From the NCBI RefSeq assembly GCF_029167375.1, contig NZ_JARFTP010000009.1, forward strand, positions 62,001 through 126,000: a stretch of DNA of 64,000 nt. Reading direction: 5' to 3'. Position 1 is the stretch's first letter; each line of letters starts with the position of its first letter. The DNA is from Tsukamurella sp. 8F. Its GTDB lineage: Bacteria; Actinomycetota; Actinomycetes; Mycobacteriales; Mycobacteriaceae. Both the position numbers and the translations under genes were made by a program. Shown here piece by piece: positions 5,454 to 38,710 of the stretch. The notes under the pieces were generated by a model. That model was not told the origin of the DNA, made no database searches, and saw only the letters and a program-made list of their open reading frames with translations.

Positions 5454-5585
5454 GAGACAACATTGCGTCACATATTGTATCTTGCTGTGCGCCAATATCA
5501 TTCGTTGACGCGGTTCGGGATCGGTGCTACAAATCGACATCGGCCCGGACCGACCGGACCGACACGATCGAATTGGAGCGATGAA

Positions 5586-6800: not shown

Positions 6801-6803
6801 CGC

Positions 6804-8338: not shown

Positions 8339-8919
8339 GTGAAACCACACACACGCAAAAGGCGCTCGGGACGGGGAGTGCCACTGTGACCGAAGTCGAC
8401 GACGATGGTTGCATCGAGCTGAAGCTCACGGGTGCCACTCGCCTGAGCCGTTGGTATCAGGTCACATCGCATTCCGATGGCGTTATCGTCCTTGAACCTC
8501 TGCTCGTGTTCACTCGGCGAACGTTTGATGAGGCCTATTCGACTCTGGCTGAATCACAATCGGTTGCGGTGTCGGACACGACCGAGCGGTCTAGGACGTC
8601 CGATGCACCCTCGGATGAGCCTTCGGGGCCGGTTGACGGTGACCAGGCCCAACCGAATCACGGTAGTGATTCGGGCGGGAGCGCCGTTGTCCGAGGGGAG
8701 TTGATGCGGACGGTCCGTCACTTGGTGAGTGTGTTCTATCCCGAGGCTGTGAGCGACGATTTGGTTGGCTTGGTGACGGCGTCGTTGCTCGATGACGCGT
8801 CTCTCGACTGCTGGCGCTGGACTGCGGATCGTGGTCTGCTGTGCAACGACTCGATGCGTTGGCGGCAAACCGTGCTGGCGTTCGCTCGGGGCTGGATCGC
8901 ACGTGGGCGGAACTGGTGA
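8335..8919 (+). CDS. Unrecognised element-encoded protein between xis and int
   Basis: This encodes 194 residues from ATG 8335, overlapping the xis stop. The N-terminal half is acidic. A Ser/Asp/Pro-rich linker lies at about residues 80-120. The C-terminal part, with many Trp and Leu residues around LDCWRWTADRGLLCND, looks like a compact helical domain. There is no membrane segment. Its TGA overlaps the GTG start of the integrase. Placement between excisionase and integrase suggests a role tied to recombination or its control, but nothing in the sequence identifies it. Confidence 0.6.
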   Translation: MSETTHTQKALGTGSATVTEVDDDGCIELKLTGATRLSRWYQVTSHSDGVIVLEPLLVFTRRTFDEAYSTLAESQSVAVSDTTERSRTSDAPSDEPSGPVDGDQAQPNHGSDSGGSAVVRGELMRTVRHLVSVFYPEAVSDDLVGLVTASLLDDASLDCWRWTADRGLLCNDSMRWRQTVLAFARGWIARGRNW

Positions 8920-10046: not shown

Positions 10047-10084
10047 ACCGGATGATGACGCGGCGTAAAACCGCAGGTCAACCC

Positions 10085-10160
10085 TGGTGCCCCCGACACG
10101 ATTCGAACGTGCGACCTGCCCTTTAGGAGAGGGCTGCTCTATCCCCTGAGCTACGGGGGC
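10085..10160 (-). tRNA. tRNA-Arg (anticodon CCT)
   Basis: This is a complete cloverleaf on the minus strand. The acceptor GCCCCCG/CGGGGGC is perfect, with D-arm GCTC/GAGC, anticodon stem GCCCT/AGGGC with loop CTCCTAA (anticodon CCT), T-arm GCACG-TTCGAAT-CGTGT and discriminator A. CCA is encoded at 10085-10087. It reads AGG codons. It is the integration site of the element to its left; its 3' 42 bases lie within the 43-bp repeat. Confidence 0.95.
10087..10129. repeat. Right attachment site: 43-bp repeat inside tRNA-Arg
   Basis: This is the second copy of the 43-bp direct repeat (see 3363-3405). Here it forms the anticodon loop to 3' end of the complete tRNA-Arg(CCT), so integration preserved the gene. 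The strand exchange must occur within these 43 bp, most likely in the anticodon-loop half. Confidence 0.92.
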
Positions 10161-16821: not shown

Positions 16822-18252
<1,431 letters not shown>

Positions 18253-20110: not shown

Positions 20111-20165
20111 GTCCCAGTGCAACGAGCGGACACCCGAGCGTGTTCCTGTTCCGATCTCGGTGCGG

Positions 20166-20200
20166 CGAATCCGATAACGATTCGACGGTCGGACTTGACA
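20166..20200 (+). promoter_or_regulatory. Candidate promoter/operator for the XRE-ABC operon
   Basis: A consensus -35 box TTGACA lies at 20195-20200 and is followed 17 bases later by a weak -10 (AACACT). Upstream, CGAATC (20166-20171) and GATTCG (20179-20184) form a 6-bp inverted repeat with a 7-bp spacer that could bind a dimeric regulator such as the XRE protein encoded next. The site lies in the 120-bp divergent gap. Confidence 0.4.
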
Positions 20201-20230
20201 TATTAACGGGAAAACACAACACTTCGATGC

Positions 20231-20527
20231 GTGAGTCCGGTACGAAGGGGCGAGAAGCTCCCCATCTACAACCGCATCGGCGTCCTGCGCGCCGAGCGGA
20301 GCATGACGCGGGCGCAGCTCGCGGAGCTGGTCGGTATCAACGTTCAGTCGGTGGGCGCACTCGAGCGGGGCGACAACTACCCGAGCCTCGACCTCGCGTT
20401 CCGCGTGTCCGACGTGTTCGGCCTGCCCGTCGAGGCGGTGTTCGGCCGAAAGCCACTCGGCCCACTGTCGACCGAGATCTACCGCGATCGAATGCGGCCC
20501 GCCGAGCCGCACGAGACCGAGAAATGA
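20231..20527 (+). CDS. XRE-family helix-turn-helix regulator
   Basis: This encodes 98 residues from GTG 20231. It has a single Cro/C1-type helix-turn-helix, NRIGVLRAERSMTRAQLAELVGINVQSVGALERG, followed by LDLAFRVSDVFGLPVEAVF. This compact type is typically paired with a small membrane protein and an ABC exporter, as here. It probably autoregulates the four-gene operon that follows. The next gene begins within or just after its stop. Confidence 0.85.
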   Translation: MSPVRRGEKLPIYNRIGVLRAERSMTRAQLAELVGINVQSVGALERGDNYPSLDLAFRVSDVFGLPVEAVFGRKPLGPLSTEIYRDRMRPAEPHETEK

Positions 20528-20538
20528 AGGAGCACTGC

Positions 20539-21087
20539 ATGATATCCAGGCTGCAGCGCCTAGAACAGTGGCGTGCCGGGCGGTACGACCTCCGTCGCGC
20601 CAAGTATCAGAAGATACTGCCGGGATGGCACAACCGCAGGGTCCGGCGGCGCCTGGTCGCCGTCACCCTGGCACTCAATGTGGCCACCTGGGCCTCCGCT
20701 GTCGCTTCCTACTTCACGCTCTGGGCGATGATCGGCGTCGTTGCGTTCATGCTGCTCACGCTGCTCGGGATGTCCCTGGTGAAGATCGCGAACGAGGACG
20801 TCACCGACGCACCCCGCGCCGCTCTCGACGAGTTCGAACTACGCGAACGCGATGCGGCGCGCTCCGTGGGGTTCTTCGTGTTCTGGGTCGGCGGCTTCGT
20901 GCCCTACCTGGTGCTGGTCACACTCGCACCGATCGACGGTCCCTACCGCGGCGCGGTCGCGTACCTCGGCGCCTACCTCGTCCTGTCCGCGCTCATGTTG
21001 GGCGCGATAACCCCGATCCTGTTGTCCGCATGGGCGCGTGAGGACGCGCCCGAAACCGACCCCTATCTGGAGGGAGAGGCCGGATGA
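20539..21087 (+). CDS. Small membrane protein of the ABC operon
   Basis: This encodes 182 residues from ATG 20539, placed 6 bases after an AAGGAG ribosome-binding site; an earlier in-frame ATG at 20524 lacks one. About four membrane helices are seen: two near residues 40-85 and two near 115-165. Basic Arg-rich N-terminal residues precede the first helix. The family is not recognised beyond resembling uncharacterised integral proteins that follow XRE regulators. It overlaps the ABC ATPase start by 4 bases. Confidence 0.75.
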   Translation: MISRLQRLEQWRAGRYDLRRAKYQKILPGWHNRRVRRRLVAVTLALNVATWASAVASYFTLWAMIGVVAFMLLTLLGMSLVKIANEDVTDAPRAALDEFELRERDAARSVGFFVFWVGGFVPYLVLVTLAPIDGPYRGAVAYLGAYLVLSALMLGAITPILLSAWAREDAPETDPYLEGEAG

Positions 21088-21971
21088 GCCTCGAGATCGA
21101 CCACCTGTCCAAGCAGTACGGGAGCGTACGGGCACTCGACGGCGTGACGTTCACCGTCCGCCCCGGCGAGGTGTACGGCTTCGTCGGATCGAACGGAGCG
21201 GGCAAGTCGACGACGATGCGCATCGCCGTCGGAGTGCTGGCCGCCGACTCCGGCACGGTGCGCATCGCCGGGCATCCCGTCGACGCGGAGACCCGGCGGC
21301 GGATCGGGTACATGCCTGAGGAGCGCGGCCTGTACCCGAAGATGAAGGTCGGCGAGCAGCTGCGCTATCTTGCACGGCTGCACGGCTTCTCGGCTGCATC
21401 TGCCGCGCGCGCAGCCGAAACGTGGACCGACCGGCTCGGCGTCGGTTCCCGTCGCGAGGACACCGTCGACGCACTATCCCTCGGCAATCAGCAGCGGGTA
21501 CAGCTCGCCGCCGCGCTGGTCCACTCCCCCGACGTCCTGATCCTCGACGAGCCGTTCTCCGGGCTCGACCCGGTGGCGGTCGACGTCATGAGCGACGTGC
21601 TGCGCGAGAAGGCGCGCGAGGGTGTGCCCGTGCTGTTCTCCAGCCATCAGCTCGACCTCGTACAGCGGCTGTGCGACCGGGTCGGGATCATCACGCACGG
21701 CGCGCTGCGCGCCGAGGGCACCGTGGCCGACCTACGAGCGACCGGCGCCGCGCACCTGACGGTGGCTACCGATGCTCCGTCGGGCTGGGCCGACCGGGTC
21801 CCGGGCGTCGTGCACGCGGACTACCGACCGGGCCGGACGGTGCTGACCCTCGCCGACGGAACAGACACCCAGCCGATCCTGCACGCGGCTCTCGCATACG
21901 GGCCGGTACGGGAATTCGCTTCCGCGCGACCCGATCTCACCGAACTCTTCCGAGAGGTGGTTTCCGCATGA
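21084..21971 (+). CDS. ABC exporter ATP-binding subunit (NatA-like)
   Basis: This encodes 295 residues with Walker A GSNGAGKST (about 36-44), signature LSLGNQQRVQLAAAL, Walker B VLILDEPFSGLD and the H-loop SSHQLD. The signature uses LSLGN in place of LSGGQ, as in other NatA/DrrA-like exporters. A C-terminal domain of about 80 residues is typical of this group. It pairs with the ABC-2 permease encoded downstream, and the start of that gene overlaps its stop. The substrate is unknown; sodium, drug or lipid export are the family's known roles. Confidence 0.92.
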   Translation: MSLEIDHLSKQYGSVRALDGVTFTVRPGEVYGFVGSNGAGKSTTMRIAVGVLAADSGTVRIAGHPVDAETRRRIGYMPEERGLYPKMKVGEQLRYLARLHGFSAASAARAAETWTDRLGVGSRREDTVDALSLGNQQRVQLAAALVHSPDVLILDEPFSGLDPVAVDVMSDVLREKAREGVPVLFSSHQLDLVQRLCDRVGIITHGALRAEGTVADLRATGAAHLTVATDAPSGWADRVPGVVHADYRPGRTVLTLADGTDTQPILHAALAYGPVREFASARPDLTELFREVVSA

Positions 21972-23194
21972 CAACCCAGCAGACCAAACCGGCACCGACC
22001 GAGGAGTCCCAGGTCGCGCGTCCCGGCGCCGCTCGCACCGTCGGGCTGATCGCCCGGCGCGAGATCTCTACCCGCATGCACGGCAAGGCCTTCCGCATCA
22101 CGTCGGCCATCACGCTGGTCGTGATCGTCGGCGGCCTCATCCTGATACATGCACTGTCCGGCGGCTCGGAGAAGACGTCGATAGGCGTCGCGGGGGGCGA
22201 TGCGGCACTGGACCACTCGATCCAGGTAGCGGGCGAGTCCACCGGGAAGTCCTATGACCTCCGGCATTTCGCGACCGCAGAAGAGGCGCAGCGGCACGTC
22301 GAGGACGGTGACGTCAAGGGCGCCCTGGTACTGAGCGCCGGGCATTACACTGCCTACTTCGACAAGGAGGGAGACCCGACACTCACGGCCCTCTTCGGCG
22401 CGGCCGCGCGACAGCACGCGATCGCCACGTCACTCGACGCGACGGCGCAATCGCAGTTGCAGCACGCTACGGAGGCCTCGGCCCTGACGGTGCATGAGCT
22501 CGCGCCACCGCCGGCCGACCAGGGGCAGCGACTCGTCATCGCATACGCAGCGGTGGCACTGCTCGCCGCCTCGATCATGGTGTCGGGACAGCTGATCGCG
22601 CAGGGTGTGGTCGAGGAGAAGGCGTCCCGGGTGGTCGAGATCCTGCTCGCGACGGTCTCCCCGACGCACCTTCTGTGGGGCAAGATCCTGGGCATCGGCG
22701 CGCTCGCTGTGGGCCAGCTCGTCGTATACGCGGCCGCCGGACTGATAACCGCGCAGGCGCTCGGGATGCTGAGCCTCGCGCTGACCGCGTACTCGGTGAT
22801 AGCCCTGTCCCTGGTGTGGTTCGTGTTGGGCTTCCTGTTCTTCGGCACGCTGTATGCCGCAGCCGCATCGCTGGTGTCCCGCCAGGAGGAGGTCGCGTCC
22901 GCGAGCGCACCGCTGACGATCCTGTCGATGGGCATGATGTATGCCGGGATCTTCGGGGTGCAGTTCCCCGACGCCACGTGGGTGAAGGTGCTCTCGTACA
23001 TCCCGCCGTTCTCCGCGACGCTGCAGCCGATGCTGGTGGCGACGGTGCACGCTTCAGGAGTGCAGCTGGTGCTCCCCATCGTGCTCGCGATCGTGATCTG
23101 CGCGGTGGCAGTGGTGCTCGCAGGGCGCATCTACCGTCGCTCGGTGCTGCACGCCGGCGCCCGGCTCAGCTGGCGGCGCGCGCTCGGCCGCTGA
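21968..23194 (+). CDS. ABC-2 type exporter permease (NatB-like)
   Basis: This encodes 408 residues from ATG 21968. One N-terminal membrane helix at about residues 48-68 is followed by an extracytoplasmic domain of about 130 residues and then five or six helices from about residue 185. The GVVEEKASRVVEILLATVSP segment in the first C-terminal cytoplasmic loop is diagnostic of NatB/ABC2_membrane_3 permeases. It is the last gene of the operon begun at 20231. Confidence 0.9.
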   Translation: MTTQQTKPAPTEESQVARPGAARTVGLIARREISTRMHGKAFRITSAITLVVIVGGLILIHALSGGSEKTSIGVAGGDAALDHSIQVAGESTGKSYDLRHFATAEEAQRHVEDGDVKGALVLSAGHYTAYFDKEGDPTLTALFGAAARQHAIATSLDATAQSQLQHATEASALTVHELAPPPADQGQRLVIAYAAVALLAASIMVSGQLIAQGVVEEKASRVVEILLATVSPTHLLWGKILGIGALAVGQLVVYAAAGLITAQALGMLSLALTAYSVIALSLVWFVLGFLFFGTLYAAAASLVSRQEEVASASAPLTILSMGMMYAGIFGVQFPDATWVKVLSYIPPFSATLQPMLVATVHASGVQLVLPIVLAIVICAVAVVLAGRIYRRSVLHAGARLSWRRALGR

Positions 23195-24735: not shown

Positions 24736-24891
24736 CGCCGCGCGCACAGGACCAGATCGCACTGTCCGGCAGGCATTCCGAGGCTCCCACACCTGGACGA
24801 CCGATCCCGCCTCGTGCCCGGAACCGGGTCAGTGCATACGCGCGTACTCGATACCGCCGCGGGGCTCGGCGCGCTGCGTACCGTGGGTGAC

Positions 24892-26211
24892 ATGGACGCA
24901 CCGTCGTTGTTCGAGCCGGACGAGAAGTCCCGACCGCTTGCGGACCGATTACGCCCGACGACTCTGGCGGACGTGGTCGGGCAACAACACCTACTGGGAC
25001 CTGACGGCCCGCTGGGACGGATGGTCGAACAGGGACGGATGGTGTCGACGATCCTGTGGGGCCCGCCCGGATGCGGGAAGACCACGATCGCCCGCCTCCT
25101 CGCCGCCGGGGCCGATCTGCACTTCGAACCGCTGTCTGCGACGTTCTCGGGCGTCGCAGACCTGCGAAGGATCTTCCAGGCGGCTACCAAGAGGCATGAG
25201 ATAGGCTATGGGACACTGCTTTTCGTCGACGAGATCCACCGATTCAATCGCGCGCAGCAGGACAGCTTCCTACCTTACGTCGAGGACGGCACGGTGGTCC
25301 TCGTCGGTGCGACCACCGAGAACCCGAGCTTCGAATTGAACGGCGCGCTGCTGTCCCGGTGCCAGGTGTTCGTGCTGCGCCGGCTGGACGAGGACGCCCT
25401 GGACATCCTGATCGCGCGCGCCGAGGAGCTGACCGGCCGCGCGGTTCCCGTCGACGGCCACGCGCGCCAGGCCCTCGTCGCAATGGCGGATGGCGACGGT
25501 CGCTACCTGCTCAACATGGTCGAGCAGGTCATGGCGTTACCCGAGACCGGCGAGCCGTTGGACGCGGCCGGCCTGGCGCACGCGGTCCAGAAGCGTGCGC
25601 CGCTGTACGACAAGACCCAGGAGAGTCACTACAACCTGATCTCGGCGCTGCACAAGTCGATGCGGGGATCGGACCCCGACGCAGCGCTCTACTGGCTCGC
25701 ACGGATGCTGGACGGCGGGGAGGACCCGCTGTACGTCGCACGCCGGGTAGTCCGGTTCGCCACCGAGGACATCGGGATGGCGGACCCGCAGGCGTTGCCG
25801 CAGGCACTCGCGGCGTGGGACGCGTACCAGCGCCTCGGCTCACCCGAAGGCGAGCTGGCGATCGCGCAGGCCGTGGTCTATCTCGCCACAGCACCGAAAT
25901 CCGTTGCGGTGTACCGCGGTATGGGCGAGGCGATGAAGGCCGCGCGCAAGAGCGGATCTCTGGCTCCGCCCGCACACATCCTCAACGCGCCCACGGGATT
26001 GATGCGCGACCTCGGTTACGGTGCGGGCTACCAGTACGACCCCGACGCCGCCGAGGGCTTCTCGGGCGCCGACTACTTCCCGGAAGGTGCCGCACGCCAG
26101 CGCTTCTACCGCCCTACGCTCGCCGGCTACGAACGAGAGGTCTCGCAGCGTCTGGATCACTGGGACCGCCTGCGGGAGCAGCGACGCGACCCGACCGAAA
26201 CGGCAGAGTAG
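24892..26211 (+). CDS. rarA: Replication-associated recombination protein RarA (MgsA/WRNIP1)
   Basis: This encodes 439 residues. The AAA+ core has Walker A GPPGCGKTT (about 55-63), Walker B LLFVDEIHRFNRAQQD and sensor region LVGATTENPSFELN with LSRCQVF. The C-terminal RarA-specific part includes QESHYNLISALHKSMRGSDPDAALYWLARML and LRDLGYGAGYQYDPD. RarA acts as a tetramer at stalled replication forks. The ATG at 24892 is chosen because the family starts with residues like SLFEPDEKSRPLADRLRP. The preceding 156 bp hold no gene. Confidence 0.95.
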   Translation: MDAPSLFEPDEKSRPLADRLRPTTLADVVGQQHLLGPDGPLGRMVEQGRMVSTILWGPPGCGKTTIARLLAAGADLHFEPLSATFSGVADLRRIFQAATKRHEIGYGTLLFVDEIHRFNRAQQDSFLPYVEDGTVVLVGATTENPSFELNGALLSRCQVFVLRRLDEDALDILIARAEELTGRAVPVDGHARQALVAMADGDGRYLLNMVEQVMALPETGEPLDAAGLAHAVQKRAPLYDKTQESHYNLISALHKSMRGSDPDAALYWLARMLDGGEDPLYVARRVVRFATEDIGMADPQALPQALAAWDAYQRLGSPEGELAIAQAVVYLATAPKSVAVYRGMGEAMKAARKSGSLAPPAHILNAPTGLMRDLGYGAGYQYDPDAAEGFSGADYFPEGAARQRFYRPTLAGYEREVSQRLDHWDRLREQRRDPTETAE

Positions 26212-26315: not shown

Positions 26316-27632
26316 ATGACGTCAGCCGTCGAGAGCGCGAGGCCGATCCGCGAGACCCGCATGACCCAGGCGCGCGACCTGGCCCGCACCACACCCGGCA
26401 TCCTGATGCTGCTGGCGGTGGCCACCGTAGTGGCCAGCGTCCTCGTCGGAGCGCTGACCGCCGGCGGCGTGGCGCACAGGGCGAACACCCTGGACACCCT
26501 GGAGCATCGCAGCGGTCCCCTCGCCGTCGCCGCCCAGGACGTGTATCGGGCTCTCTCCGATGCCGACGCGACCGCGAACAGCGGTTTCCTGGCGGGCGGG
26601 CAGGAATCGCCCGCGGTGCGGTCCCGATACACCGCGGACATCCGCCAGGCGGGCGCCGCTCTCGCACTGGCCACGTCGGCGCAGTCGTCGTCCACCACGG
26701 CGGACCCGAGCAGTCCCGTTGCCGTCCTCACCGCCAACCTGCCGGTGTACACGGGCCTCGTCGAAACGGCGCGGGCCGACAACCTGCAGGGGCTGCCCGT
26801 CGGTGCCGCGTACCAGCGCGAGGCGTCGCATCTCATGCGCGGGCTGCTGCTGCCCGCAGCCGAGAGCCTGTACCGGACGCAGGTCGCGCACCTCGCCGCC
26901 GACGAGGACTCGGCCGGCGGCTTCCCGTGGACTGAGGCGGCAGTCGGCCTGATCCTGATCGCGGTCCTCGCGGCGGCCCAATGGTTCGTGTGGCGCCGCT
27001 CCCGCCGCCGCCTGAACGCCGGTCTGACACTCGCGACCCTGGCCGCCACGCTATCGCTGTTGTGGGTACTGCTCGCCTCGTTTCTGGTGATGAGCTCGGT
27101 ACACAGCGCTCGCGCGGACGGGTCCAGCCAAACCGACGTCCTGACCGAAGCCCGTATCGACGCCCTGCAGGCCCGCGCCGACGAGACGCTCACCCTCGTG
27201 GCCCGCGATGGCGGGGCGGAGTACGAGAAGGACTACACAGCAGCTTATTCCAACGGCAAGGGGATGTTGGACAGGGCATTGTCGATCGCCACCGACCCGC
27301 ATGTCACGCGTGAGGTCCGAGCCGCGCGGGATGCGCAGACGCAATGGAACGGCGCACACGAGGCCATCCGCAGCTCCGACGACGGCGGCGACTACGGTGC
27401 GGCGGTGCAGCGCGCGATAGGTACCGAACCCGACGGCGCCGCAAGTGCTTTCGATAAGGTGGACACGTCGTTATCATCCGCGATCGCCGCCACGAGCGGG
27501 GCGTTCGAGCGCAACGTGGCGGACGCCCACGACACTCTCACCGGAGCGGTGTGGGGCGTGATCATCCTCGCCGTTCTCACCGCTGCCGCCGCGGTGGCCG
27601 GACTCTGGCAGCGGCTGAAGGAGTACCGATGA
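26316..27632 (+). CDS. glnX: GlnX-like membrane protein (Rv0412c-like)
   Basis: This encodes 438 residues from ATG 26316, after GAGGAGG. Four membrane helices are seen, at about 31-52, 207-228, 238-262 and 412-433. Large extracytoplasmic loops (about 55-205 and 265-410) have a helical, chemoreceptor-like composition. In Corynebacterium and M. tuberculosis the equivalent protein sits in the membrane and links the amino-acid-binding lipoprotein GlnH outside to the kinase PknG inside. Gene order here is the same (membrane protein, glnH, then pknG), with one extra gene. The stop overlaps the glnH start by 4 bp (ATGA). This is the first gene of a seven-gene operon. Confidence 0.85.
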   Translation: MTSAVESARPIRETRMTQARDLARTTPGILMLLAVATVVASVLVGALTAGGVAHRANTLDTLEHRSGPLAVAAQDVYRALSDADATANSGFLAGGQESPAVRSRYTADIRQAGAALALATSAQSSSTTADPSSPVAVLTANLPVYTGLVETARADNLQGLPVGAAYQREASHLMRGLLLPAAESLYRTQVAHLAADEDSAGGFPWTEAAVGLILIAVLAAAQWFVWRRSRRRLNAGLTLATLAATLSLLWVLLASFLVMSSVHSARADGSSQTDVLTEARIDALQARADETLTLVARDGGAEYEKDYTAAYSNGKGMLDRALSIATDPHVTREVRAARDAQTQWNGAHEAIRSSDDGGDYGAAVQRAIGTEPDGAASAFDKVDTSLSSAIAATSGAFERNVADAHDTLTGAVWGVIILAVLTAAAAVAGLWQRLKEYR

Positions 27633-28585
27633 AGCGCTCGACCATCGCCGTCGGCACCGCGGTCATGCTCACTCTCGCCGCGTGCGGGAGTCGCGAATCC
27701 GCCTTCAGCGTAGCCACTTCCGTCAGTGCAGGGGCGCCCTCGCCTGCCGGGGCCACGCAGGTGCGCTCGCTTCCCGGCACCGCATCGGACACGAGCTGCG
27801 GGGACCCGACAGCGAGCTATCGTCCGTCGACGGCATCCGGACCCGGACTGGCTGCGATCCGGGCGCGCGGCCGCCTGATCGCGGGGGTGGACCAGAACAC
27901 CTTTCAATTCGGATACCGCAATCCGGTGAGTGGCAACCTGGAGGGCTTCGACATCGACATCGCGCGGGCGGTCGCTCAAGCCGTCTTCGGACGAGCCGAC
28001 GCTATACAGTTCCGGGTAGTCAACTCCGCCAACAGGATCGACGCCGTCAAGAACCACGATGTCGACATCGTGGTCGAGACCATGACGATGAACTGCGCCC
28101 GCTGGCGCGACGTCGCGTTCAGCTCGGTCTACTACCAGGCGGGGCAGCGAGTGCTGGTGGCGAAGGACTCGAAAGCCACGTCGATGGCATCACTCGGCGG
28201 CAGGAGAGTCTGCGCCGCCGCTGGTTCCACATCCATACAGAACATCGTCGATGCACCGTCCAAGCCCGTCGGGATACAGGTGCCGGGCTGGACCGACTGC
28301 CTCGTGATGATGCAACAGAACCAGGTAGACGCCATCTCCACCGACGACACCATCCTCGCCGGTCTCGCCGCGCAGGACCCGTTCACCAAGATCGTCGGTC
28401 CCCCGATGACGTCCGAGCCCTACGGGATCGCCGTGGCCAAGGACCACCTCGACCTGGTCCGCTTCGTCAACTCGGTACTGGATCGCATGCGCTCGGACGG
28501 GCAGTGGGCAACGATATACAACCACTGGCTCGCAAGCCTTCTCGGCGGGAGCGCAATCCCGCCCACACCGAAGTACCGGGACTGA
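27629..28585 (+). CDS. glnH: GlnH-type amino-acid-binding lipoprotein
   Basis: This encodes 318 residues with a signal peptide and lipobox TLAAC (Cys 19). The mature class II solute-binding fold includes IRARGRLIAGVDQNTFQFG, NLEGFDIDIARAVA, NHDVDIVVETMTM and VDAISTDDTILAGLAAQDP. It is similar to M. tuberculosis GlnH (Rv0411c), which senses aspartate, glutamate and asparagine and passes the signal through the membrane protein to PknG. No amino-acid permease is encoded here, supporting a sensory rather than import role. A GGAG ribosome-binding site lies within the end of glnX. Confidence 0.92.
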   Translation: MKRSTIAVGTAVMLTLAACGSRESAFSVATSVSAGAPSPAGATQVRSLPGTASDTSCGDPTASYRPSTASGPGLAAIRARGRLIAGVDQNTFQFGYRNPVSGNLEGFDIDIARAVAQAVFGRADAIQFRVVNSANRIDAVKNHDVDIVVETMTMNCARWRDVAFSSVYYQAGQRVLVAKDSKATSMASLGGRRVCAAAGSTSIQNIVDAPSKPVGIQVPGWTDCLVMMQQNQVDAISTDDTILAGLAAQDPFTKIVGPPMTSEPYGIAVAKDHLDLVRFVNSVLDRMRSDGQWATIYNHWLASLLGGSAIPPTPKYRD

Positions 28586-28587
28586 CC

Positions 28588-29784
28588 GTGGCCACCGACC
28601 TGCAAGAGCTGGGCCGCACCCTCGACCTCGTCGTCGCCGACGGCGAGCGCCTCGCGGAGGCTTTGGTGGCCATGGACTCCCACCCCGCGCTCGCCTTGGT
28701 TCGGGACGCGGCGTTGAGGGGCGTCACGGCACGTCGCTGGGCTCAGGCGTCGACGGCGATGACGACCGTCTGGGAGCAGTACAGCTGCCTCAAGGAGCTC
28801 GTCGACCACGGTGTGGACATCCGGAGCCGCGCTGAGCGATCAAGGCGGCCGGCCGATTCCGACCTGGCATTACTTACCGAGCTACTCTACGGCCCCGTCG
28901 TCGGCGCCGCAGCACTCGCAGACGGGCAGCCGGGTACCCTTGCCGATCTCATCGCTGAGATGCAGGCCTCGCATGCCACCGTGGTCGCGCTGCTCACAGA
29001 GGTCGACTCCGCATGGAAGGCCACTGTGCCGCCGCTCGACACCGTCGACCGGCGGCTCGCGGAGGCCGCACGGATGGCGGAATCCGTTTCTGCAGGCAGG
29101 AACCGGGCATCCGCGCTGCGCCGCGAGTTGAACCGCACCCGCGAGTTCGTACTCACCGATCCGCTCTCGGCACTGATCGATGACCCGGTGCGGGCGCTCG
29201 CCCGGCGTGTCGAGGAGCTGGCGGCCGAGCTGTCCCGGCTCTCGGCGGTGCGGGACGATTTCACTGCTCGGCTCGCCGCCCTCGAGGCGGTACTGACGGA
29301 CGTCGAGTCGATGGAGGAGACCGCCCACCAAGCCTATTCCGCGGTCCTGGAGAAGGTCGCAGCGCCCGGGCTGGCCGAGCCCGACCGCGACGGGTCGGCG
29401 GCGTTGCGGGCCAGAATCGAACGCTTACGCTCTCTGCGCGACACCGTCAGCTGGGAGGCCGTGGCCGCAGAGCAGGAATCCGTCGACCGTTTCGCCGGGG
29501 AGACCCTCGCTGCGGCGCGGCTGGCCCTGCGCAGCGTCACGGGTCTGCTGGACCGAAGGGCGGAGCTGCGGGGGCGACTCGAGGCATACCGGGCCAAGGC
29601 AGCGCGACTCGGGTACGCCGAGGATGCCGAGCTCGCGACCCTACACCACACCGCCGAGAACCAGTTGTACTCGGCTCCTTGCGATCTGGCCGCGGCTACC
29701 CGCGCGCTCAATCGCTACCGGGACGCCCTGATGGAGAAGACCGGACCCGCGCAGGCGGCGCCCGTCGAGGAGGGACCGCGATGA
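28588..29784 (+). CDS. Coiled-coil protein between glnH and pknG, unrecognised family
   Basis: This encodes 398 residues from GTG 28588, two bases after the glnH stop. It is almost entirely helical with long heptad-like Ala/Leu/Arg/Glu runs, for example around RRVEELAAELSRLSAVRDDF and RARIERLRSLRDTV. There is no signal, membrane segment or catalytic motif. The C-terminus is a short Pro/Ala/Glu tail. Its stop overlaps the pknG start (ATGA). This gene is not present between glnH and pknG in M. tuberculosis. A scaffold or adaptor for the kinase complex is a reasonable inference only. Confidence 0.75.
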   Translation: MATDLQELGRTLDLVVADGERLAEALVAMDSHPALALVRDAALRGVTARRWAQASTAMTTVWEQYSCLKELVDHGVDIRSRAERSRRPADSDLALLTELLYGPVVGAAALADGQPGTLADLIAEMQASHATVVALLTEVDSAWKATVPPLDTVDRRLAEAARMAESVSAGRNRASALRRELNRTREFVLTDPLSALIDDPVRALARRVEELAAELSRLSAVRDDFTARLAALEAVLTDVESMEETAHQAYSAVLEKVAAPGLAEPDRDGSAALRARIERLRSLRDTVSWEAVAAEQESVDRFAGETLAAARLALRSVTGLLDRRAELRGRLEAYRAKAARLGYAEDAELATLHHTAENQLYSAPCDLAAATRALNRYRDALMEKTGPAQAAPVEEGPR

Positions 29785-32144
29785 CCACGACAGGCGCATG
29801 CGCACGACCCGGGTGCAACGGGAGCATCGACGCAGACGGGTTCTGCGACAGCTGTGGCATGGAGGCCACGCCTCCGTCACCCGCCCCCGATCCAGGCGTC
29901 ACTGCGTCTCGTGCAGGCGATCTCGGCGGGCCTGGCACCGCTGCGGCCGAACCGGGCACCGCGGCCACGCCGTACGACCCGTTCACCTCCGCCACGGGCG
30001 CTGCGACCGGATCCGCGACGGGCCGCGGCGCCGGCGGTTTCACGGGCTCCGCCCGCTCCCGACGCGGCTCCAGCCGATCGTCCGGGCGATCGGGCCGGTC
30101 CGGGCGGCGCGGCCTGCTGGGTGCAGGTCTCGTCGAGGTCCCCCGCGTGCCGTACCGCGATCCGCAGTCGGCGGTCCTCGCCGACCCGAAGGTACCGGAG
30201 AGCCGGCGCTTCTGCTCCAAGTGCGGTGCCGAGGTCGGCCGGGCCCGCGACGGGAGCCCGGGCCGCACCGAGGGCTTCTGCCCGGCCTGCCGCAATCCGT
30301 TCTCCTTCTCCCCCAAACTGGCGCCGGGCGAAGTGGTACACGGTCAGTACGAGGTACTCGGCTGCCTGGCACACGGCGGCCTGGGGTGGATCTATCTCGC
30401 TGCGGACCGCGCGGTCGCCGACAGGTGGGTGGTCCTCAAGGGCCTGCTCGATTCCGGCGACGCCGACGCGATGGCGGCCGCCGTCGCCGAGCGGCGATTC
30501 CTGGCCGAGGTCGAGCATCCGAACATCGTGAAGATCTACAACTTCGTCGAGCATCCGGACTCGAATACCGGTGCGCCCGTGGGCTACATCGTCATGGAGT
30601 ACGTGGGCGGCGAGTCGATCAAAGGCATCCTCCAGAAGATCCGGGCGACCGAGGGCCACAAGGCATGCCTGCCCCTGCCGCAGGCGATCGCGTATGCGCT
30701 CGAGGTCCTCCCGGCGCTCGGCTACCTGCACTCGAAGGACCTGCTGTTCTGCGACTTCAAGCCGGACAACGTGATCCAGACCGAGGAGCAGCTCAAACTG
30801 ATCGATCTCGGTGCCGTCCGCGCGATCGAGGACGAGGACAGCCCGATATACGGCACGATCGGATACCAGGCTCCGGAGATCGGCACCGAGGGACCGTCGG
30901 TTCAGTCCGACCTCTACACCATCGGGCGCGCCCTCGCAGTCCTGACCTTTCCATTCGACTACCTGCGGGCACACAAGGAGACGCTGCCCGACGCGACGGA
31001 GGAGCCCCTCCTCGCGCAGCAGGAGTCGTACCATCGGTTCCTGCTGCGTGCCACGTCTACGCACAGCGCCTCGCGATTCGCGTCCGCGGACGAGATGCGC
31101 GATCAGCTGACCGGCGTGCTCCGCGAAGTACTCGCCGAGCAGGACGGGAAGCCACGGCCCGGAACTTCCACCGAATTCACCCCCGAGCGTGCGTCGTTCG
31201 GGATCACGGCGGCACTCGCCCCGCCGTCGCCCGCCGTCGTGGCGGCCGCACTGCCGGTGCCCAAAGCCGACTCCGATGACCCCTCGGCAGCCTTCCTCGC
31301 GACGGTCACGGCGATTGCTCCCGAGCGCGTCGCCGACGAGCTGGGTCACGCCCCGAAGAACAGCCCGGAGGTGCGGCTCCGCCTCGCACGGGCCCACCTC
31401 GACGCTGGAGACACGGCAGCTGCGCGGCGGCTCATCGACGGCGTCGCAGCGCTCACGGCAGACTCCGAACGCACCTGGCCTATCGCGTGGTACCGCGGCA
31501 TCGCCGCGCTGACCGACGGAGACGTCTCCGAGGCGGTCGCACAGTTCGACCTGGTGTACTCGGCCGTCCCGGGGGAGCAGGCGCCCAAGCTGGCCCTCGC
31601 CGCCTGCGCAGAGCAGGCGGGCGATCATCGGCGCGCTGCACAGCTCTTCCGCGCGGTGTGGCGCACCGACGCCGCGTACGTCAGCGCAGCCTTCGGCCTC
31701 GCTCGAGCTCTGGCTGCGGACGGCGACCGGCGATCGGCCTACGAGGTCCTGTGCACCGTGCCCGACACCTCGAGCCACCGGATCACGGCCCGCCTCGCAG
31801 CCGCCGCGGCCCGTGTCGAGGCCGTCCGACCCGAGCGACTCGCGGCCGACGATCTTCTCGCGGCCGGCACCCAGATCGAAGGTATCGACGACGAGCTCGA
31901 CGCGCGCCGAAGGGCGCTCGCCTCGGAGCGCGTCCTCGGCAAGGCGCTCGAATGGGTCCATGTCGGCGGCTCGCCGCCGCCCGACGACGCCACGCCGCTC
32001 CTGGGCGCTCGTCTCGCCGAGCCGGACCTCCGCGCCGCCCTCGAAGGCTGCTACCGCACGCTCGCTCGCCATGCATCGTCCCCGAAGGAGCGGATCGCGT
32101 TGGTGGACAAGGCGAACCGCATTCGGCCGAAGTCGTGGATGTGA
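29781..32144 (+). CDS. pknG: Serine/threonine protein kinase PknG
   Basis: This encodes 787 residues. An extra N-terminal zinc ribbon (CARPGC...FCDSCG, residues 7-26) and a Ser/Gly/Arg-rich linker precede the rubredoxin-like CSKCG...CPAC (about 145-169). The kinase domain covers about 185-450, with the glycine loop AHGGLGWIYLA, Lys about 219 in VVLKG, catalytic Asp in FCDFKPDN (about 325) and DLGA in place of DFG. A TPR domain follows (about 550-787). All PknG-specific departures from canonical kinases are kept. In mycobacteria PknG phosphorylates the FHA protein GarA and so controls 2-oxoglutarate flux. The second N-terminal ribbon is additional to the M. tuberculosis form. Confidence 0.95.
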   Translation: MTTTGACARPGCNGSIDADGFCDSCGMEATPPSPAPDPGVTASRAGDLGGPGTAAAEPGTAATPYDPFTSATGAATGSATGRGAGGFTGSARSRRGSSRSSGRSGRSGRRGLLGAGLVEVPRVPYRDPQSAVLADPKVPESRRFCSKCGAEVGRARDGSPGRTEGFCPACRNPFSFSPKLAPGEVVHGQYEVLGCLAHGGLGWIYLAADRAVADRWVVLKGLLDSGDADAMAAAVAERRFLAEVEHPNIVKIYNFVEHPDSNTGAPVGYIVMEYVGGESIKGILQKIRATEGHKACLPLPQAIAYALEVLPALGYLHSKDLLFCDFKPDNVIQTEEQLKLIDLGAVRAIEDEDSPIYGTIGYQAPEIGTEGPSVQSDLYTIGRALAVLTFPFDYLRAHKETLPDATEEPLLAQQESYHRFLLRATSTHSASRFASADEMRDQLTGVLREVLAEQDGKPRPGTSTEFTPERASFGITAALAPPSPAVVAAALPVPKADSDDPSAAFLATVTAIAPERVADELGHAPKNSPEVRLRLARAHLDAGDTAAARRLIDGVAALTADSERTWPIAWYRGIAALTDGDVSEAVAQFDLVYSAVPGEQAPKLALAACAEQAGDHRRAAQLFRAVWRTDAAYVSAAFGLARALAADGDRRSAYEVLCTVPDTSSHRITARLAAAAARVEAVRPERLAADDLLAAGTQIEGIDDELDARRRALASERVLGKALEWVHVGGSPPPDDATPLLGARLAEPDLRAALEGCYRTLARHASSPKERIALVDKANRIRPKSWM

Positions 32145-33082
32145 GTGCCATGACGACATGCCCCGAATGTGGCGTCGACGTCGCCCGCGATCAGCGGTTC
32201 TGCGAGTCGTGCGGACGCCCGCTACTGGTCCGCCGCACCCCGGTCGGAGGAGCCGCAGATCGGACCCGGGTCGACTGGGATCTCGGTGCGGTCGTGGGCG
32301 TCAGCGACGTCGGCAACCGCCGCACGCGCAACGAGGACGCGATGGCGTTCGCGGTGGTGTCCACGGAGGCCGGCGGCGCCGGGCCCGCCGCGGCCGTCGC
32401 GGTGGTATGTGACGGGGTGGCCACGTCCGACCGGGGGCACCTCGCGTCGCAGGCCGCCGTCGACGTGGCCTGCGACGTCCTGCTGGACGCCGTTCTCTCT
32501 TCGGGGGCCGCACCGTTCACCATCGAGAATGCAGGCAGCGCAACGCAGGAGGCGGTATCGGGCGCCGTGGCAGTCGTCAGTGAGCTTGCCGACCCCGCGA
32601 ACCCGGACACAGCCCCGTCGTGCACATTCGTGTCGGCGGTCGTGACGCCCGGGCAGATCGTCGTCGGCTGGGTGGGTGACAGCCGTGCCTATTGGCTGGC
32701 CGCACCCGAAGGCAGATCCCGGCGACTCACCATCGACGACACCCTCGCGGTCGACCTGATCGCCGCCGGTGTCCCGGAGGAGGTCGCGAACTCTGCGCCG
32801 CAGGGACACGCACTGTCCCGCTGGATAGGCGCAGACGCAGCCGAGACCCACGCGCGGATCGCGACGCTGCGCCCCGATGGCCCGGGCGTCCTGCTCCTGT
32901 GTAGCGACGGTCTGTGGAACTACCTGCCCGAATCCGACATGCTGGCCGCGGTCGTCCACGGTGCCGCTGAGACCGCTTGGGCTGCGACCGAATCCGTCGA
33001 GAACGCACTCGACATGGGCGGCCACGACAACATCACCGCGGTGCTCGTACCGATCCCGCTCGACGAGAGGAGTCAGCGATGA
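32141..33082 (+). CDS. PP2C-type protein phosphatase with N-terminal zinc ribbon
   Basis: This encodes 313 residues from GTG 32141, which overlaps the pknG stop; ATG 32150 is the alternative. An N-terminal zinc ribbon (CPECG...FCESCG) is followed by a PP2C domain. Metal-binding and fold motifs are VGNRRTRNEDAM, VVCDGVAT (DGVAT in place of DGMGG), WVGDSRAYW, CSDGLWNYL and GGHDNITAVLV. The protein is soluble. It is expected to reverse PknG phosphorylation. A kinase and its phosphatase made from overlapping genes is a strong hint of a matched pair. The next gene starts within its stop (ATGA). Confidence 0.9.
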   Translation: MSAMTTCPECGVDVARDQRFCESCGRPLLVRRTPVGGAADRTRVDWDLGAVVGVSDVGNRRTRNEDAMAFAVVSTEAGGAGPAAAVAVVCDGVATSDRGHLASQAAVDVACDVLLDAVLSSGAAPFTIENAGSATQEAVSGAVAVVSELADPANPDTAPSCTFVSAVVTPGQIVVGWVGDSRAYWLAAPEGRSRRLTIDDTLAVDLIAAGVPEEVANSAPQGHALSRWIGADAAETHARIATLRPDGPGVLLLCSDGLWNYLPESDMLAAVVHGAAETAWAATESVENALDMGGHDNITAVLVPIPLDERSQR

Positions 33083-34365
33083 CCGACCATCCCGAGTTCA
33101 CCGTCGAGGTGTTCCAGAACGAGTACCTCACCGTAGGCGCCACGGACGTGAACGCCATCGTGACGGTGACGTCGTCCGGGTCCACCGCACCCGGCGTCGG
33201 CGACGCCGCCGAAGTGATCGTGGTCGACACGTCGGGTTCGATGGGACAGCCCCCGACCAAGCTGTCCGCGGCCAAGCAGGCGACGATCGCCGCTATCGAC
33301 ACTCTGCGTAACGGCGTCGAGTTCGCTGTCGTCGCCGGCAATCACGCGGCACGCCCGGTGTACCCGCCGGGCGGGCTCGCGGTGGCGGGCTCCAAGACCC
33401 GCTCGCAGGCCGCAAGCGCCGTACGGCGCCTCGGCCATGGTGGTGGCACGGCGGTCGGATCCTGGCTCCTGATGGCGGACAGCCTGTTCCGCGAGACCGA
33501 AGCGAAGATCAAGCACGTCATCCTGCTCACCGACGGGCGCAACGAGAGCGAGGAACCGGAGGAGCTGGAGGCCGCGCTGCGCACCGTGTCGGGGCGTTTC
33601 GTCGGCGACTGCCGCGGCGTCGGAACCGACTGGGAGGTACCGGAACTGCGCCGCGTCGCGGACGCGCTGCTCGGCACCGTCGACATCGTGGCCGAGCCCG
33701 CCGGGCTCGAAGCGGACTTCCGAGCCATGGCGGGCGCGGCGATGAGCAAGACGATAGGCGAGGTGTCCCTGCGCCTCTGGACTCCCGAGGGCTCCTCAGT
33801 CGTCTTCGTGAAGCAGGTCGAGCCGACGCTGACGGATCTCACCGCCCGTCGCGTCGAGGTGCCGCCCCGCAGCGGCGACTACCCCACCGGCGCGTGGGGC
33901 GCCGAGAGCCGAGATTTCCATGTATGTGTACGTGTTCCGTCCGCATCGGTCGGCGACCGCATGCTCGCGGCACGGGTCGGCCTCGTCGGATCCGACGAGG
34001 CAGTACTCGGCACCGGCAAGGTGCTCGCCGTATGGACGGACGACATGGCTCTGTCCACGAGGATCAACCGTGAGGTCGCGCACTACACCGGGCAGGCGGA
34101 TCTAGCGGCGGCGATCCAGGAGGGACTCGAGGCTCGGCGCGCCGGCGACGTCCACACCGCGACCGCGAAGCTCGGGCGCGCGGTGGAGCTGGCCACGAAG
34201 TCCGGCAACAGCGACACCGTCGAGCTGCTGGCAGGCGTCGTGGAGATCGATGATCCCCACACGGGCACAGTACATCTCAAGCGCAACGTGGCGGCGGTGG
34301 ACGAGATGACTCTGGACACCCGCTCATCCAAGACGTTGCGGGTGAAGAAGCAGGGGGGATCATGA
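33079..34365 (+). CDS. Cytoplasmic vWA-domain protein of the PknG operon
   Basis: This encodes 428 residues with no signal or membrane helix. The vWA domain (about 45-230) has MIDAS DTSGSMGQPP at residues 50-56, the threonine in GHGGGTAVGSW and the aspartate in ILLTDGRNESEE. The remainder is a beta-rich middle and a helical C-terminus around DLAAAIQEGLEARRAGDVHTATAKL, which resembles a single TPR-like helical pair. vWA proteins of this type often bind partners through Mg2+ at the MIDAS and work beside phosphatases and FHA proteins. Its substrate is unknown. The stop overlaps the next start (ATGA). Confidence 0.88.
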   Translation: MTDHPEFTVEVFQNEYLTVGATDVNAIVTVTSSGSTAPGVGDAAEVIVVDTSGSMGQPPTKLSAAKQATIAAIDTLRNGVEFAVVAGNHAARPVYPPGGLAVAGSKTRSQAASAVRRLGHGGGTAVGSWLLMADSLFRETEAKIKHVILLTDGRNESEEPEELEAALRTVSGRFVGDCRGVGTDWEVPELRRVADALLGTVDIVAEPAGLEADFRAMAGAAMSKTIGEVSLRLWTPEGSSVVFVKQVEPTLTDLTARRVEVPPRSGDYPTGAWGAESRDFHVCVRVPSASVGDRMLAARVGLVGSDEAVLGTGKVLAVWTDDMALSTRINREVAHYTGQADLAAAIQEGLEARRAGDVHTATAKLGRAVELATKSGNSDTVELLAGVVEIDDPHTGTVHLKRNVAAVDEMTLDTRSSKTLRVKKQGGS

Positions 34366-35051
34366 ACACCTGCCCGCAGGGGCACAGCTCCAGCGACGAC
34401 GAGTTCTGCGACGTGTGCGGTCTCTCGATCGGAGGCGGTACTCCCCCGCCCGCAGGCGCAGCGCCTTCCGCTCTCTCGGGTGGGCCCGACCCGGCACCTC
34501 CGCCGGGCGCGCGGTGCGTCGCCTGTGGCGGTGAGCTCGCCGGTCGGTTCTGCGAGGAGTGCGGTCACGATTCGCTGCAGCCCGTGGCCGCAGCGTCCGC
34601 GTCAACCCCGACGTCCGCGTCGGTCGCCGCGCCGCAGCAGTGGACGGCGATCGTGACCGCGGACCGCACGTACTTCGACTCGGTGATCGCGGACGAGGGC
34701 CCCGACGCCGGAGGAATCACGTTTCCGCCCTTCTGTCCGGACCGCACGTTCAGCCTCGATGGCACACAGGTCACCGTCGGGCGTGCGAGCCGCAGCCGCG
34801 GCATCCACCCCGACATCGACCTCACGGGCCCACCTGAGGACCCCGGCGTCTCTCACCTGCACGCCGTGTTGCTCGCCCGCGACGACGGAGACTGGTCGGT
34901 CATCGATCTCGGATCGTCCAACGGCACATCGGTGAACGGCGATCCTCTCGCCGCGAACGCTCCTCGCCCGGTAGGCACGGGCGACATCATCCACCTCGGC
35001 GCCTGGACCCGCATCACCCTGCGGCCGTCCGGCGACAGCCGCTCGGAATAG
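34362..35051 (+). CDS. FHA-domain phosphothreonine reader with two zinc ribbons
   Basis: This encodes 229 residues. Two N-terminal zinc ribbons (CPQGH...FCDVCG and CVACG...FCEECG) are joined by Pro/Ala-rich linkers. A C-terminal FHA domain (about 140-225) has the conserved GRASRSR, VSHLHAVLL and LGSSNGTSVNG, which contact phosphothreonine. It is last in the operon and about 22 bp from the converging gene. It is not GarA: there is no short N-terminal TTS phosphosite peptide. It could be the recruiting subunit that reads PknG or PknB products. Confidence 0.9.
   Translation: MNTCPQGHSSSDDEFCDVCGLSIGGGTPPPAGAAPSALSGGPDPAPPPGARCVACGGELAGRFCEECGHDSLQPVAAASASTPTSASVAAPQQWTAIVTADRTYFDSVIADEGPDAGGITFPPFCPDRTFSLDGTQVTVGRASRSRGIHPDIDLTGPPEDPGVSHLHAVLLARDDGDWSVIDLGSSNGTSVNGDPLAANAPRPVGTGDIIHLGAWTRITLRPSGDSRSE

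Positions 35052-37399: not shown

Positions 37400-38710
<1,311 letters not shown>

Follow-up and report, generated by a model that had tools for sequence, protein, structure and literature searches.

A conserved seven-gene operon around a PknG-type kinase in Tsukamurella sp. 8F, with a candidate phospho-signalling role for its vWA and FHA proteins

Described relatives of the locus

Among bacterial Ser/Thr kinases PknG has received much attention, and in mycobacteria and Corynebacterium it is described from a GlnX-GlnH-PknG operon (PMC6069109, PMC8546545 and PMC9769921, in the parts covered). Two further systems have components in common with the locus described here. One is the TerY-P triad, which the covered parts of PMC11090510 and PMC4978471 present as a vWA protein, a PP2C phosphatase and a Ser/Thr kinase with a C-terminal zinc ribbon. 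The other is the ArnA/ArnB pair of the archaeon Sulfolobus acidocaldarius, which regulates the archaellum. The parts of PMC6509490 covered report that the C terminus of ArnB is an in-vitro substrate of the kinases ArnC and ArnD, that the zinc-finger FHA protein ArnA binds this phosphorylated C terminus, and that binding decreases on starvation. The last ArnB phosphopeptide found in vitro, EITSEVTKK, contains S-x-x-T; the same parts of that paper report that it did not reach significant levels in vivo, that pairwise Thr-to-Ala changes in ArnB left motility unaltered, and that no ArnB phosphopeptide was found to fall in step with the loss of ArnA binding.

We analysed a 64,000-nucleotide stretch of the Tsukamurella sp. 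8F genome (hereafter the window), in which seven genes on the + strand at 26316-35051 encode, in order, a GlnX-like protein, GlnH, a coiled-coil protein, PknG, a PP2C phosphatase, a vWA protein and an FHA protein. As in the GlnX-GlnH-PknG operon, a transmembrane transducer, a sensor lipoprotein and a TPR kinase follow one another, and the kinase residues and most of the pocket residues are kept; the window unit differs in adding the coiled-coil, PP2C, vWA and FHA genes. The unit shares with the TerY-P triad, as described in the parts covered, the clustering of kinase, phosphatase and vWA genes and the presence of zinc ribbons, but its ribbons are on the PP2C and FHA proteins, PknG has an N-terminal Cys motif, and the unit includes an FHA reader, a membrane sensor and no restriction gene that we noticed. 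With ArnA/ArnB it shares a zinc-finger FHA protein beside a protein of putative vWA, beta-sandwich and helix-bundle type (a fold assigned here through orthology to the solved structure 4FX5), a kinase and a phosphatase alongside, a proposed nutrient dependence, and the S-x-x-T motif that the last ArnB phosphopeptide contains. Beyond its archaeal setting, that system differs in that its phosphatase is PP2A and ArnA, as described in the parts of PMC6509490 covered, carries a RanBP2-type finger unlike the ribbon type of the window FHA protein; PknG, GlnX and GlnH are not mentioned in those parts.

Genes and proteins of the unit

The coordinates confirm the arrangement proposed in the initial annotation, with 4-bp overlaps at five junctions (glnX/glnH, coiled-coil/pknG, pknG/PP2C, PP2C/vWA and vWA/FHA) and a 2-bp gap between glnH and the coiled-coil gene. 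An alternative PP2C start, an in-frame ATG at 32150, would turn one of these overlaps into a 5-bp gap. Such overlaps are not universal among relatives of the unit: among loci that have six or seven of the genes, a 4-bp overlap is possible at glnX/glnH in 25/25, at coiled-coil/pknG in 17/24, at pknG/PP2C and PP2C/vWA in 11/25 each, at vWA/FHA in 5/25 and at glnH/coiled-coil in 2/24. A simple promoter and terminator scan of the unit was uninformative and gave nothing usable.

The GlnX-like transmembrane signal transducer (26316..27632, 438 aa) scores 439.3 bits against the GlnX subfamily profile NF058618 (cut-off 250), with hydrophobic stretches near residues 24-54, 200-227, 235-265 and 406-434. 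Unlike the GlnX of the described operon, it falls below the GlnX equivalog NF041460 (kinase G-activating protein), at 210.9 bits against a cut-off of 780. The GlnH-like lipoprotein (27629..28585, 318 aa), a predicted periplasmic amino-acid sensor, matches SBP_bac_3 at 99.4 bits, has the GlnH entry 6h2t as its best solved match (E 2.1e-81) and carries a lipobox, LAAC, that can be read directly. According to the parts of PMC6069109 covered, the ligand residues of the Asp/Glu-sensing GlnH are R147, K161, T162, S164, R169, W232 and D250. The window protein has R, E, T, T, R, W and D at these positions, so that five are kept and S164T is conservative, but Glu stands at the Lys161 position; all ten Streptomyces-type units have Gln at the position aligned with Trp232. 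A nitrogen or amino-acid input is plausible, with pocket residues that appear to vary among aligned sequences.

The coiled-coil protein (28588..29784, 398 aa, GTG start) belongs to no assigned family: family-profile searches gave no match above its cut-off, and matches in the PDB were weak (best E 0.0032), with no informative solved structure among them. It does have a conserved C-terminal motif, R-x-ELRGRL-x-AY...APCDL, and the columns invariant in 13/13 sequences include R324, E326, L327, G329, P364 and D366. A frame in locus L121 that fuses the coiled-coil protein to PknG was considered as evidence of interaction and discounted; it was treated as a frameshift because another piece of the coiled-coil protein is called there as a separate overlapping frame.

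PknG itself (29781..32144, 787 aa) has an N-terminal Cys motif followed by rubredoxin, kinase and TPR domains, each over its cut-off (PF16919 PknG_rubred, 98.0 bits; PF00069 Pkinase, 94.1 bits; PF16918 PknG_TPR, 279.5 bits), and the PknG TPR domain forms the C terminus (residues 460-785). Catalytic residues K220, D325, K327, N330 and D342 are kept in 138/138 aligned sequences. The Cys motif occurs in 10/11 extended loci, 2/10 loci of the PknG/PP2C(/FHA) type and 0/68 canonical loci, a weak count, since the anchor on which it relies was found in only 11 of 30 extended loci.

The PP2C phosphatase (32141..33082, 313 aa, GTG start; PP2C_2 49.5 bits) has an N-terminal zinc ribbon, which is found in 29/30 extended units, and its metal residues occur in 29-30 of 30. 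The vWA protein (33079..34365, 428 aa) combines VWA_2 (54.1 bits), with an intact MIDAS, and VWA_3_C (72.9 bits) with a C-terminal S-x-x-T tail (S416 and T419), and is an orthologue of 4FX5 (E 2.9e-130). The FHA protein (34362..35051, 229 aa; FHA 53.5 bits) opens with two Cys/His ribbons, in which C4, H8, C16, C19, C52, C55 and C64 are invariant in 11/11 aligned sequences; this alignment is better evidence than a regular-expression count, which undercounts the ribbons (10/29) because the first is spaced C-x3-H. The pThr-binding residues G, R, S, H and N are present in 28-29 of 29 FHA proteins. The examined catalytic and binding residues are intact in the kinase, PP2C, vWA and FHA proteins.

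The vWA tail and a candidate phospho-switch

The vWA tail tracks the presence of the FHA gene. The vWA protein closes with a motif S-x(1,2)-T-x-x-[VIL] in 29/29 readable extended units, all with FHA, a count that excludes locus L071, where the vWA frame is split; there the tail is present and no FHA match occurs before the contig end. The motif also ends the protein in 79/80 named vWA-seeded loci (the best 80 of at least 549 relatives). The comparison group is a set of coiled-coil/PknG/vWA units without FHA and PP2C (19/140 pknG loci). These have related kinase, vWA and coiled-coil genes but differ in that GlnX, if present, mostly follows vWA and, by the labels given to the neighbouring genes, GlnH is absent in 18/19; the tail occurs in 0/19, and a C-terminal zinc ribbon replaces it in 18/19. 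The +3 position of the tail is Ala in 4FX5 and Thr in L224, and the tail motif is missing from three units of genus code g40 that have a vWA and an FHA gene. The correlation rests mainly on one tree split, and hence amounts to nearly a single event.

This pattern is suggestive of a compact writer, reader and eraser set with a membrane sensor, in which we infer every biochemical step and the output. Periplasmic GlnH would sense an amino-acid-like ligand, and GlnX would pass its state to the PknG TPR domain, following the model published for mycobacteria and corynebacteria, with the coiled-coil protein probably a scaffold or adaptor. PknG would then phosphorylate the vWA protein on its S-x-x-T tail, the FHA protein with its zinc ribbons would bind the phosphorylated tail, and PP2C would remove the mark. 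We hold this reading tentatively, at a little short of an even chance; it makes one specific prediction, that the phosphorylated vWA tail is bound by the linked FHA protein.

The vWA-FHA complex may further be a nutrient-gated switch of the ArnA/ArnB type, which, if true, would connect an actinobacterial kinase system to an archaeal starvation regulator. The initial annotation knew of no functional description of the whole unit. The vWA/FHA half of the unit does have a functional precedent, not named there, in archaeal ArnA/ArnB; for the downstream genes the literature searched held no functional data. The argument for kinship to ArnA/ArnB is one of published fold similarity, namely the vWA, beta-sandwich and four-helix architecture that 4FX5 has in common with the ArnB paralogue vWA2 (PMC6509490, in the parts covered), because the 17 PDB matches of the vWA profile up to E 10 include no archaeal vWA chain and the FHA profile scores GarA (6.8e-11) above ArnA (5a8i, 4.7e-9). 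A bolder version holds that such a switch, and not GarA alone, was the ancestral partner of PknG. The seven-gene unit would then be the original amino-acid-gated system of these actinobacteria, with PknG, FHA and PP2C acting on the vWA tail as above, the mycobacterial operon a remnant of two independent losses, and the switch shared with archaea by descent or early transfer. We consider this version doubtful, though possible.

Alternatively, the extra genes could serve the GarA/OdhI branch, with PP2C dephosphorylating GarA and the vWA and FHA proteins scaffolding PknG or competing with GarA, yielding a better-regulated 2-oxoglutarate dehydrogenase switch. An OdhI/GarA orthologue is present in this genome (226 bits, cut-off 200; among 14 control genomes the family passes its cut-off in one, C. 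glutamicum), and the FHA profile has GarA and OdhI among its best matches. The Streptomyces-type genomes examined have no three-gene unit (0/13 fetched PknG loci), and the covered parts of PMC6069109 describe sensor, signalling and effector proteins as conserved in Streptomyces. Seven PknG loci have FHA and PP2C adjoining PknG without a vWA match, six as PknG/PP2C/FHA plus glnX and glnH and one as PknG, PP2C and FHA only, and FHA therefore cannot serve vWA alone. Yet the canonical unit is already in this genome, and mycobacteria and Corynebacterium control GarA/OdhI without the four genes, according to the published accounts in the parts covered. This alternative is unlikely, with a real if minor chance of being right.

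Distribution, direction of change and genomic setting

The initial annotation had suggested that related gene sets may exist in other actinobacteria, and this is borne out. When the neighbours of pknG orthologues were tabulated in 140 neighbourhoods from 106 genomes, they were not random: all seven genes occur in the same order in 24/140, across 11 genus codes, and one further neighbourhood has the set minus a coiled-coil match. All seven are also in order at 67 of the 80 named vWA-seeded loci mentioned above, mostly from Streptomyces. At the order level, 101 genomes have PknG over its cut-off (of the 32 in genus code g2, 13 were fetched), and in the genus code read as Streptomyces all 10 of 10 such genomes carry the seven-gene unit. 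The unit is therefore not confined to unusual organisms. Their joint recurrence in a constant order makes the seven genes an evolutionary unit.

The PknG tree places three-gene and solitary units in two clades among longer units. The full tree has 117 rows and omits 23/140 loci (near duplicates and broken genes); the careful tree uses 54 of these rows, with several long branches omitted. Forcing the three-gene and solitary rows (28/54) together was rejected by the AU test (p-AU 0.00019). Three-gene units alone form one clade in 0/200 bootstrap trees, a figure made partly trivial by the solitary pknG genes that fall within one of these clades, so that we rely on the AU test. On the tree, shortening of a longer unit on two or more occasions is the favoured course, a direction of loss that we infer, and the textbook three-gene operon looks derived. 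The known mycobacterial unit was thus probably not extended by further genes, as had been proposed; it may be a cut-down form that retained just the sensing and kinase portion of an older seven-gene operon, one still complete here and in Streptomyces. Repeated addition of the four genes to a three-gene ancestor is rather improbable: the root, on the coiled-coil/PknG/vWA group, was our choice and intermediate sets exist (PknG-PP2C-FHA and PknG-PP2C), but addition would require one set of four genes to have arrived repeatedly in a single order, and coiled-coil and vWA genes are already in the outgroup units. Under reduction, PknG has been modelled on lineages apparently missing more than half of the operon, and were the seven-gene form ancestral, the original PknG signalling would be better studied in Streptomyces.

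A TerY-P-like stress or defence module that borrowed the GlnX/GlnH sensor is very unlikely. The two systems have the vWA, PP2C and kinase set in common, in the parts of the TerY-P papers covered, PADLOC kinase models match the PknG kinase domain, and a RarA-like ATPase lies upstream; however, PknG ends in TPR repeats and not in a C-terminal zinc ribbon, we noticed no restriction gene in the window's translated 20-40 kb, and PADLOC matched the kinase alone, with no match for the other six proteins. That the genes are co-transcribed neighbours without a functional link is barely credible, for all the lack of functional data on the downstream genes in the literature searched, against gene order kept across 11 genus codes and window proteins that all have the same closest relative (L029), with a Kibdelosporangium, Saccharothrix or f5 locus second for each.

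The initial annotation suggested that the unit is a self-contained phospho-signalling module, and the recurrence of the set and the intact residues agree with this in part. The canonical three-gene unit is nonetheless also present elsewhere in this genome, and the seven-gene copy is therefore an addition here. It fills a site that in two relatives measures about 640 bp, and its acquisition was probably horizontal.

The same inserted interval includes the RarA-like ATPase (24886..26211, + strand), a second, divergent copy that we do not count in the signalling unit. At E 1e-100, 15 further genomes of the genus give no match to this protein. The idea of a genus without RarA, which that search suggested, was overturned at E 1e-15, where a different RarA copy (43-45% identity) was found in all 16 genomes, this one included.

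The seven-gene unit and its distribution

Seven co-directional genes at 26316-35051 encode, in order, a GlnX-like protein, GlnH, a coiled-coil protein, PknG, a PP2C phosphatase, a vWA protein and an FHA protein. The initial annotation had described this operon, and its genes, their order, the 4-bp overlaps (five junctions) and the single 2-bp gap are all as it claimed. The PP2C gene has two candidate starts, GTG 32141, which gives the overlap, and ATG 32150, which gives a 5-bp gap. Domain identity is firm for every protein except the coiled-coil protein, for which a family-model search returned nothing above cut-off. The genome is 4.68 Mb and 99.96% complete, with the window on contig C70, and contig C23 of the same genome carries a second, canonical glnX-glnH-pknG unit.

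We used the PknG rubredoxin family as the seed for a census of the genus, order and phylum plus 14 control genomes. The family was found in 16/16 genomes of the genus, 101/248 genomes of the order (over cut-off) and 23/296 genomes of the phylum, with no match in the 14 controls. Reading 140 neighbourhoods from 106 genomes, we scored a gene as absent when the locus showed no same-strand match exceeding set score limits. The three-gene unit was the commonest set (70/140 loci, with one further locus lacking glnX on a short contig), followed by the complete seven-gene set in the same order (24/140 loci, 11 genus codes). This tabulation bears out the suggestion that related sets may exist in other actinobacteria, as PP2C, vWA and FHA recur beside pknG in fixed order. 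Extended loci, those with PknG, PP2C and vWA including partial and contig-cut cases, number 30, in 30 genomes and 16 genus codes. Neighbourhoods were fetched for 82 PknG-positive genomes of the order, and 18 of these have an extended locus; genus code g2, for which 13 of 32 genomes were fetched, contributes one among its 13. Other arrangements were coiled-coil/PknG/vWA sets without PP2C and FHA (19/140), PknG/PP2C sets without vWA (10/140; six with FHA, four without), PknG/vWA/FHA sets (3/140) and a set of PknG, PP2C and FHA only (1/140). Solitary pknG occurs at six of the 140 loci (L008, L015, L017, L019, L022 and L046), all of genus code g3 and forming one clade in a quick tree, with no matches to glnX, glnH or other partners at these loci.

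In genus code g64, all ten genomes whose PknG exceeds the cut-off have the seven-gene unit, three of them also have a coiled-coil/PknG/vWA locus, and the three-gene unit is absent from the 13 g64 loci fetched. We read g64 as Streptomyces because one of its genomes matches Streptomyces fructofermentans by shared sequence. A sample of named genomes was seeded with the vWA alignment and kept the best 80 of at least 549 relatives, making it a selection rather than an unbiased census. Streptomyces makes up most of these best 80; others include Kibdelosporangium, Saccharothrix, Streptacidiphilus, Kitasatospora, Actinacidiphila and an Amycolatopsis draft. All seven genes stand in order at 67 of these 80 loci (glnX being called twice in one), twelve have a partial set and reach a contig end in every case, and at the remaining locus, L217, glnX follows FHA and glnH has no match. 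The long unit exists as described, recurs widely and is coherent in evolutionary terms.

No description of the seven-gene unit was found among the papers listed in searches of an open full-text library, judged mostly by title and abstract, and none there combined PknG, von Willebrand and Actinobacteria; papers mentioning both PknG and ArnB treat other subjects by title and abstract. In the excerpts consulted, the PknG operon arrangement is described as conserved in actinobacteria with only GlnX and GlnH named (PMC6069109), and FHA genes of M. tuberculosis are described as clustered with kinases and phosphatases (PMC1262709). A broad GlnX subfamily model is already in NCBIfam.

Direction of change and origin of the window copy

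The initial annotation pictured the mycobacterial operon as extended here, and the PknG phylogeny points to what is probably the reverse. In a maximum likelihood tree of 54 rows, with the root placed by us on the coiled-coil/PknG/vWA group, the three-gene units split into two clades, one of 14 rows from family f12 (100/100) and one of 12 rows from family f1 plus two solitary pknG (100/100), and both sit among extended units. Two seven-gene units from f1 genomes pair as sister to the f1 clade (node 100/100), and forcing all 28 rows of three-gene or solitary type into a single group was rejected (p-AU 0.00019). The outgroup units already contain the coiled-coil and vWA genes. Most simply read, these results make the long unit the older one, with two separate reductions giving the textbook operon, so that it is more likely the mycobacterial operon that was shortened. 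This tree is weakest in its rooting and row choice, and it resolves the deeper branching of extended units poorly.

The long unit occurs in only 2/16 genomes of the window's genus. The distance from the carboxyltransferase-like to the NRAMP-type gene is about 640-650 bp in G014 and G004, two genomes without the unit, and 10.9 kb in the window; a carboxyltransferase match was not found in the 8 kb fetched from G006 or within about 1.5 kb in G012. The inserted interval holds the seven genes and, directly upstream of them, a divergent second RarA-like ATPase (24886-26211). In the rest of the genus (15 genomes) only a RarA copy at 43-45% identity was seen, and the window's genome has such a copy too. 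In G011, the other carrier, the long unit likewise adjoins the NRAMP-type gene. The window PknG clusters with units of families f5 and f12, and forcing it and G011 PknG together with the two other f1 seven-gene units was rejected (p-AU 0.000045). For all seven window proteins the closest relative is in L029, the long unit of G011, and the second-best is in a Kibdelosporangium, Saccharothrix or f5 locus. These data are best explained by horizontal acquisition of the whole block; an old duplication with loss retains some likelihood as the origin of the window copy.

ABC transporter genes (20140-23194) lie between the aldo-keto reductase-like and carboxyltransferase-like genes; G014 and G004 lack them at the corresponding position, and the two flanking genes there are about 100 bp apart. 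The contig of L147, deposited under the name Acidobacteriaceae bacterium isolate BOG_194, proved identical to C547, a contig of G011 (locus L029); as G011 is placed in the window's genus, the deposited name is probably wrong.

The vWA tail and its possible role

Kinase residues are intact in all 138 aligned PknG sequences, and in extended units PP2C metal residues (29-30/30), vWA MIDAS residues (30/30) and FHA phosphothreonine-binding residues (28-29/29) are likewise present. Both the PP2C and the FHA proteins bear N-terminal zinc ribbons. The window vWA protein has a C-terminal S-x-x-T, and S-x(1,2)-T-x-x-[VIL] ends the vWA protein in 29/29 readable extended units, every one with FHA, and in 79/80 named loci (best 80 of at least 549 relatives). 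FHA domains often favour an aliphatic residue three places after the phosphothreonine; L224 and 4FX5, a solved vWA protein structure, have other residues there. The tail was found in 0/19 units without FHA, 18 of which have a zinc ribbon in its place, and in 0/3 PknG/vWA/FHA units of g40; at L071 it is present with no FHA match up to the contig end. Most units without FHA belong to one tree branch, so the correlation between tail and FHA amounts to roughly a single evolutionary event.

The vWA protein is orthologous to 4FX5 (E 2.9e-130), which excerpts of PMC6509490 identify as caci_2163 of Catenulispora acidiphila, with a three-part architecture common to Sulfolobus vWA2, an ArnB paralogue. 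According to the same excerpts, the ArnB C terminus is phosphorylated by Ser/Thr kinases in Sulfolobus and bound by the zinc-finger FHA protein ArnA, the interaction weakens on nutrient loss, ArnA binding is strongly lowered when ArnB lacks its C-terminal domain, and the very last ArnB phosphopeptide gave the highest in vitro intensities (PMC6509490). This peptide and the vWA tail of extended units have S-x-x-T in common. The last ArnB peptide was not detected at significant levels in vivo, however, pairwise Thr-to-Ala changes left motility unaffected, and no ArnB phosphopeptide decreased together with lost ArnA interaction (same excerpts, PMC6509490). These results, together with a sequence search that matched no archaeal vWA chain at E values up to 10, weaken a simple transfer of the ArnA/ArnB model.

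The best-supported mechanism, which we infer tentatively and put at a little short of even, is a cycle in which PknG would write on the vWA tail, FHA read and PP2C erase. At seven PknG loci FHA and PP2C are present and vWA is missing; therefore FHA must act in other ways too or find its vWA partner at another locus. Such loci slightly lower the odds of this cycle and raise those of the extra genes serving the known GarA/OdhI branch, which we nevertheless consider unlikely. They also count against the boldest reading, which is improbable when taken jointly: that the seven-gene unit is original, that PknG's ancestral partner was not only GarA but an ArnA/ArnB-type vWA-FHA switch, that two losses followed, and that the switch is shared with archaea through descent or early transfer.

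Excerpts of PMC6069109 give the ligand contacts of mycobacterial GlnH and predict Asp/Glu specificity for members within Actinomycetales. Window GlnH keeps five of seven compared side chains, with Ser164 changed to Thr and Lys161 to Glu. The Lys161 position is Glu in 2/26 extended units and Lys or Arg in 70/71 canonical units, and the Trp232 position is Gln in 10/10 Streptomyces-type units. Judged from these pocket residues, the ligand of long units may be other than Asp/Glu.

Other features of the window

Translation readings indicate a replication-initiator-like protein (3598-5244), an FtsK-like translocase (6804-8141) and a tyrosine integrase-like gene (8841-10046) adjoining tRNA-Arg(CCT) (10085-10160), and 3598-10160 is likely an integrative element. 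Two vWA-like open frames that resemble each other and have DISGSM motifs flank it (694-1815 and 11888-13489, minus strand), one apparently truncated; they may be a duplication connected with this element. Glutamate dehydrogenase is a GarA target. Glutamate dehydrogenase-like (16822-18153, minus strand) and citrate synthase-like (37400-38710, minus strand) genes, both from translation readings, lie one on each side of the inserted interval, within about 8 kb.
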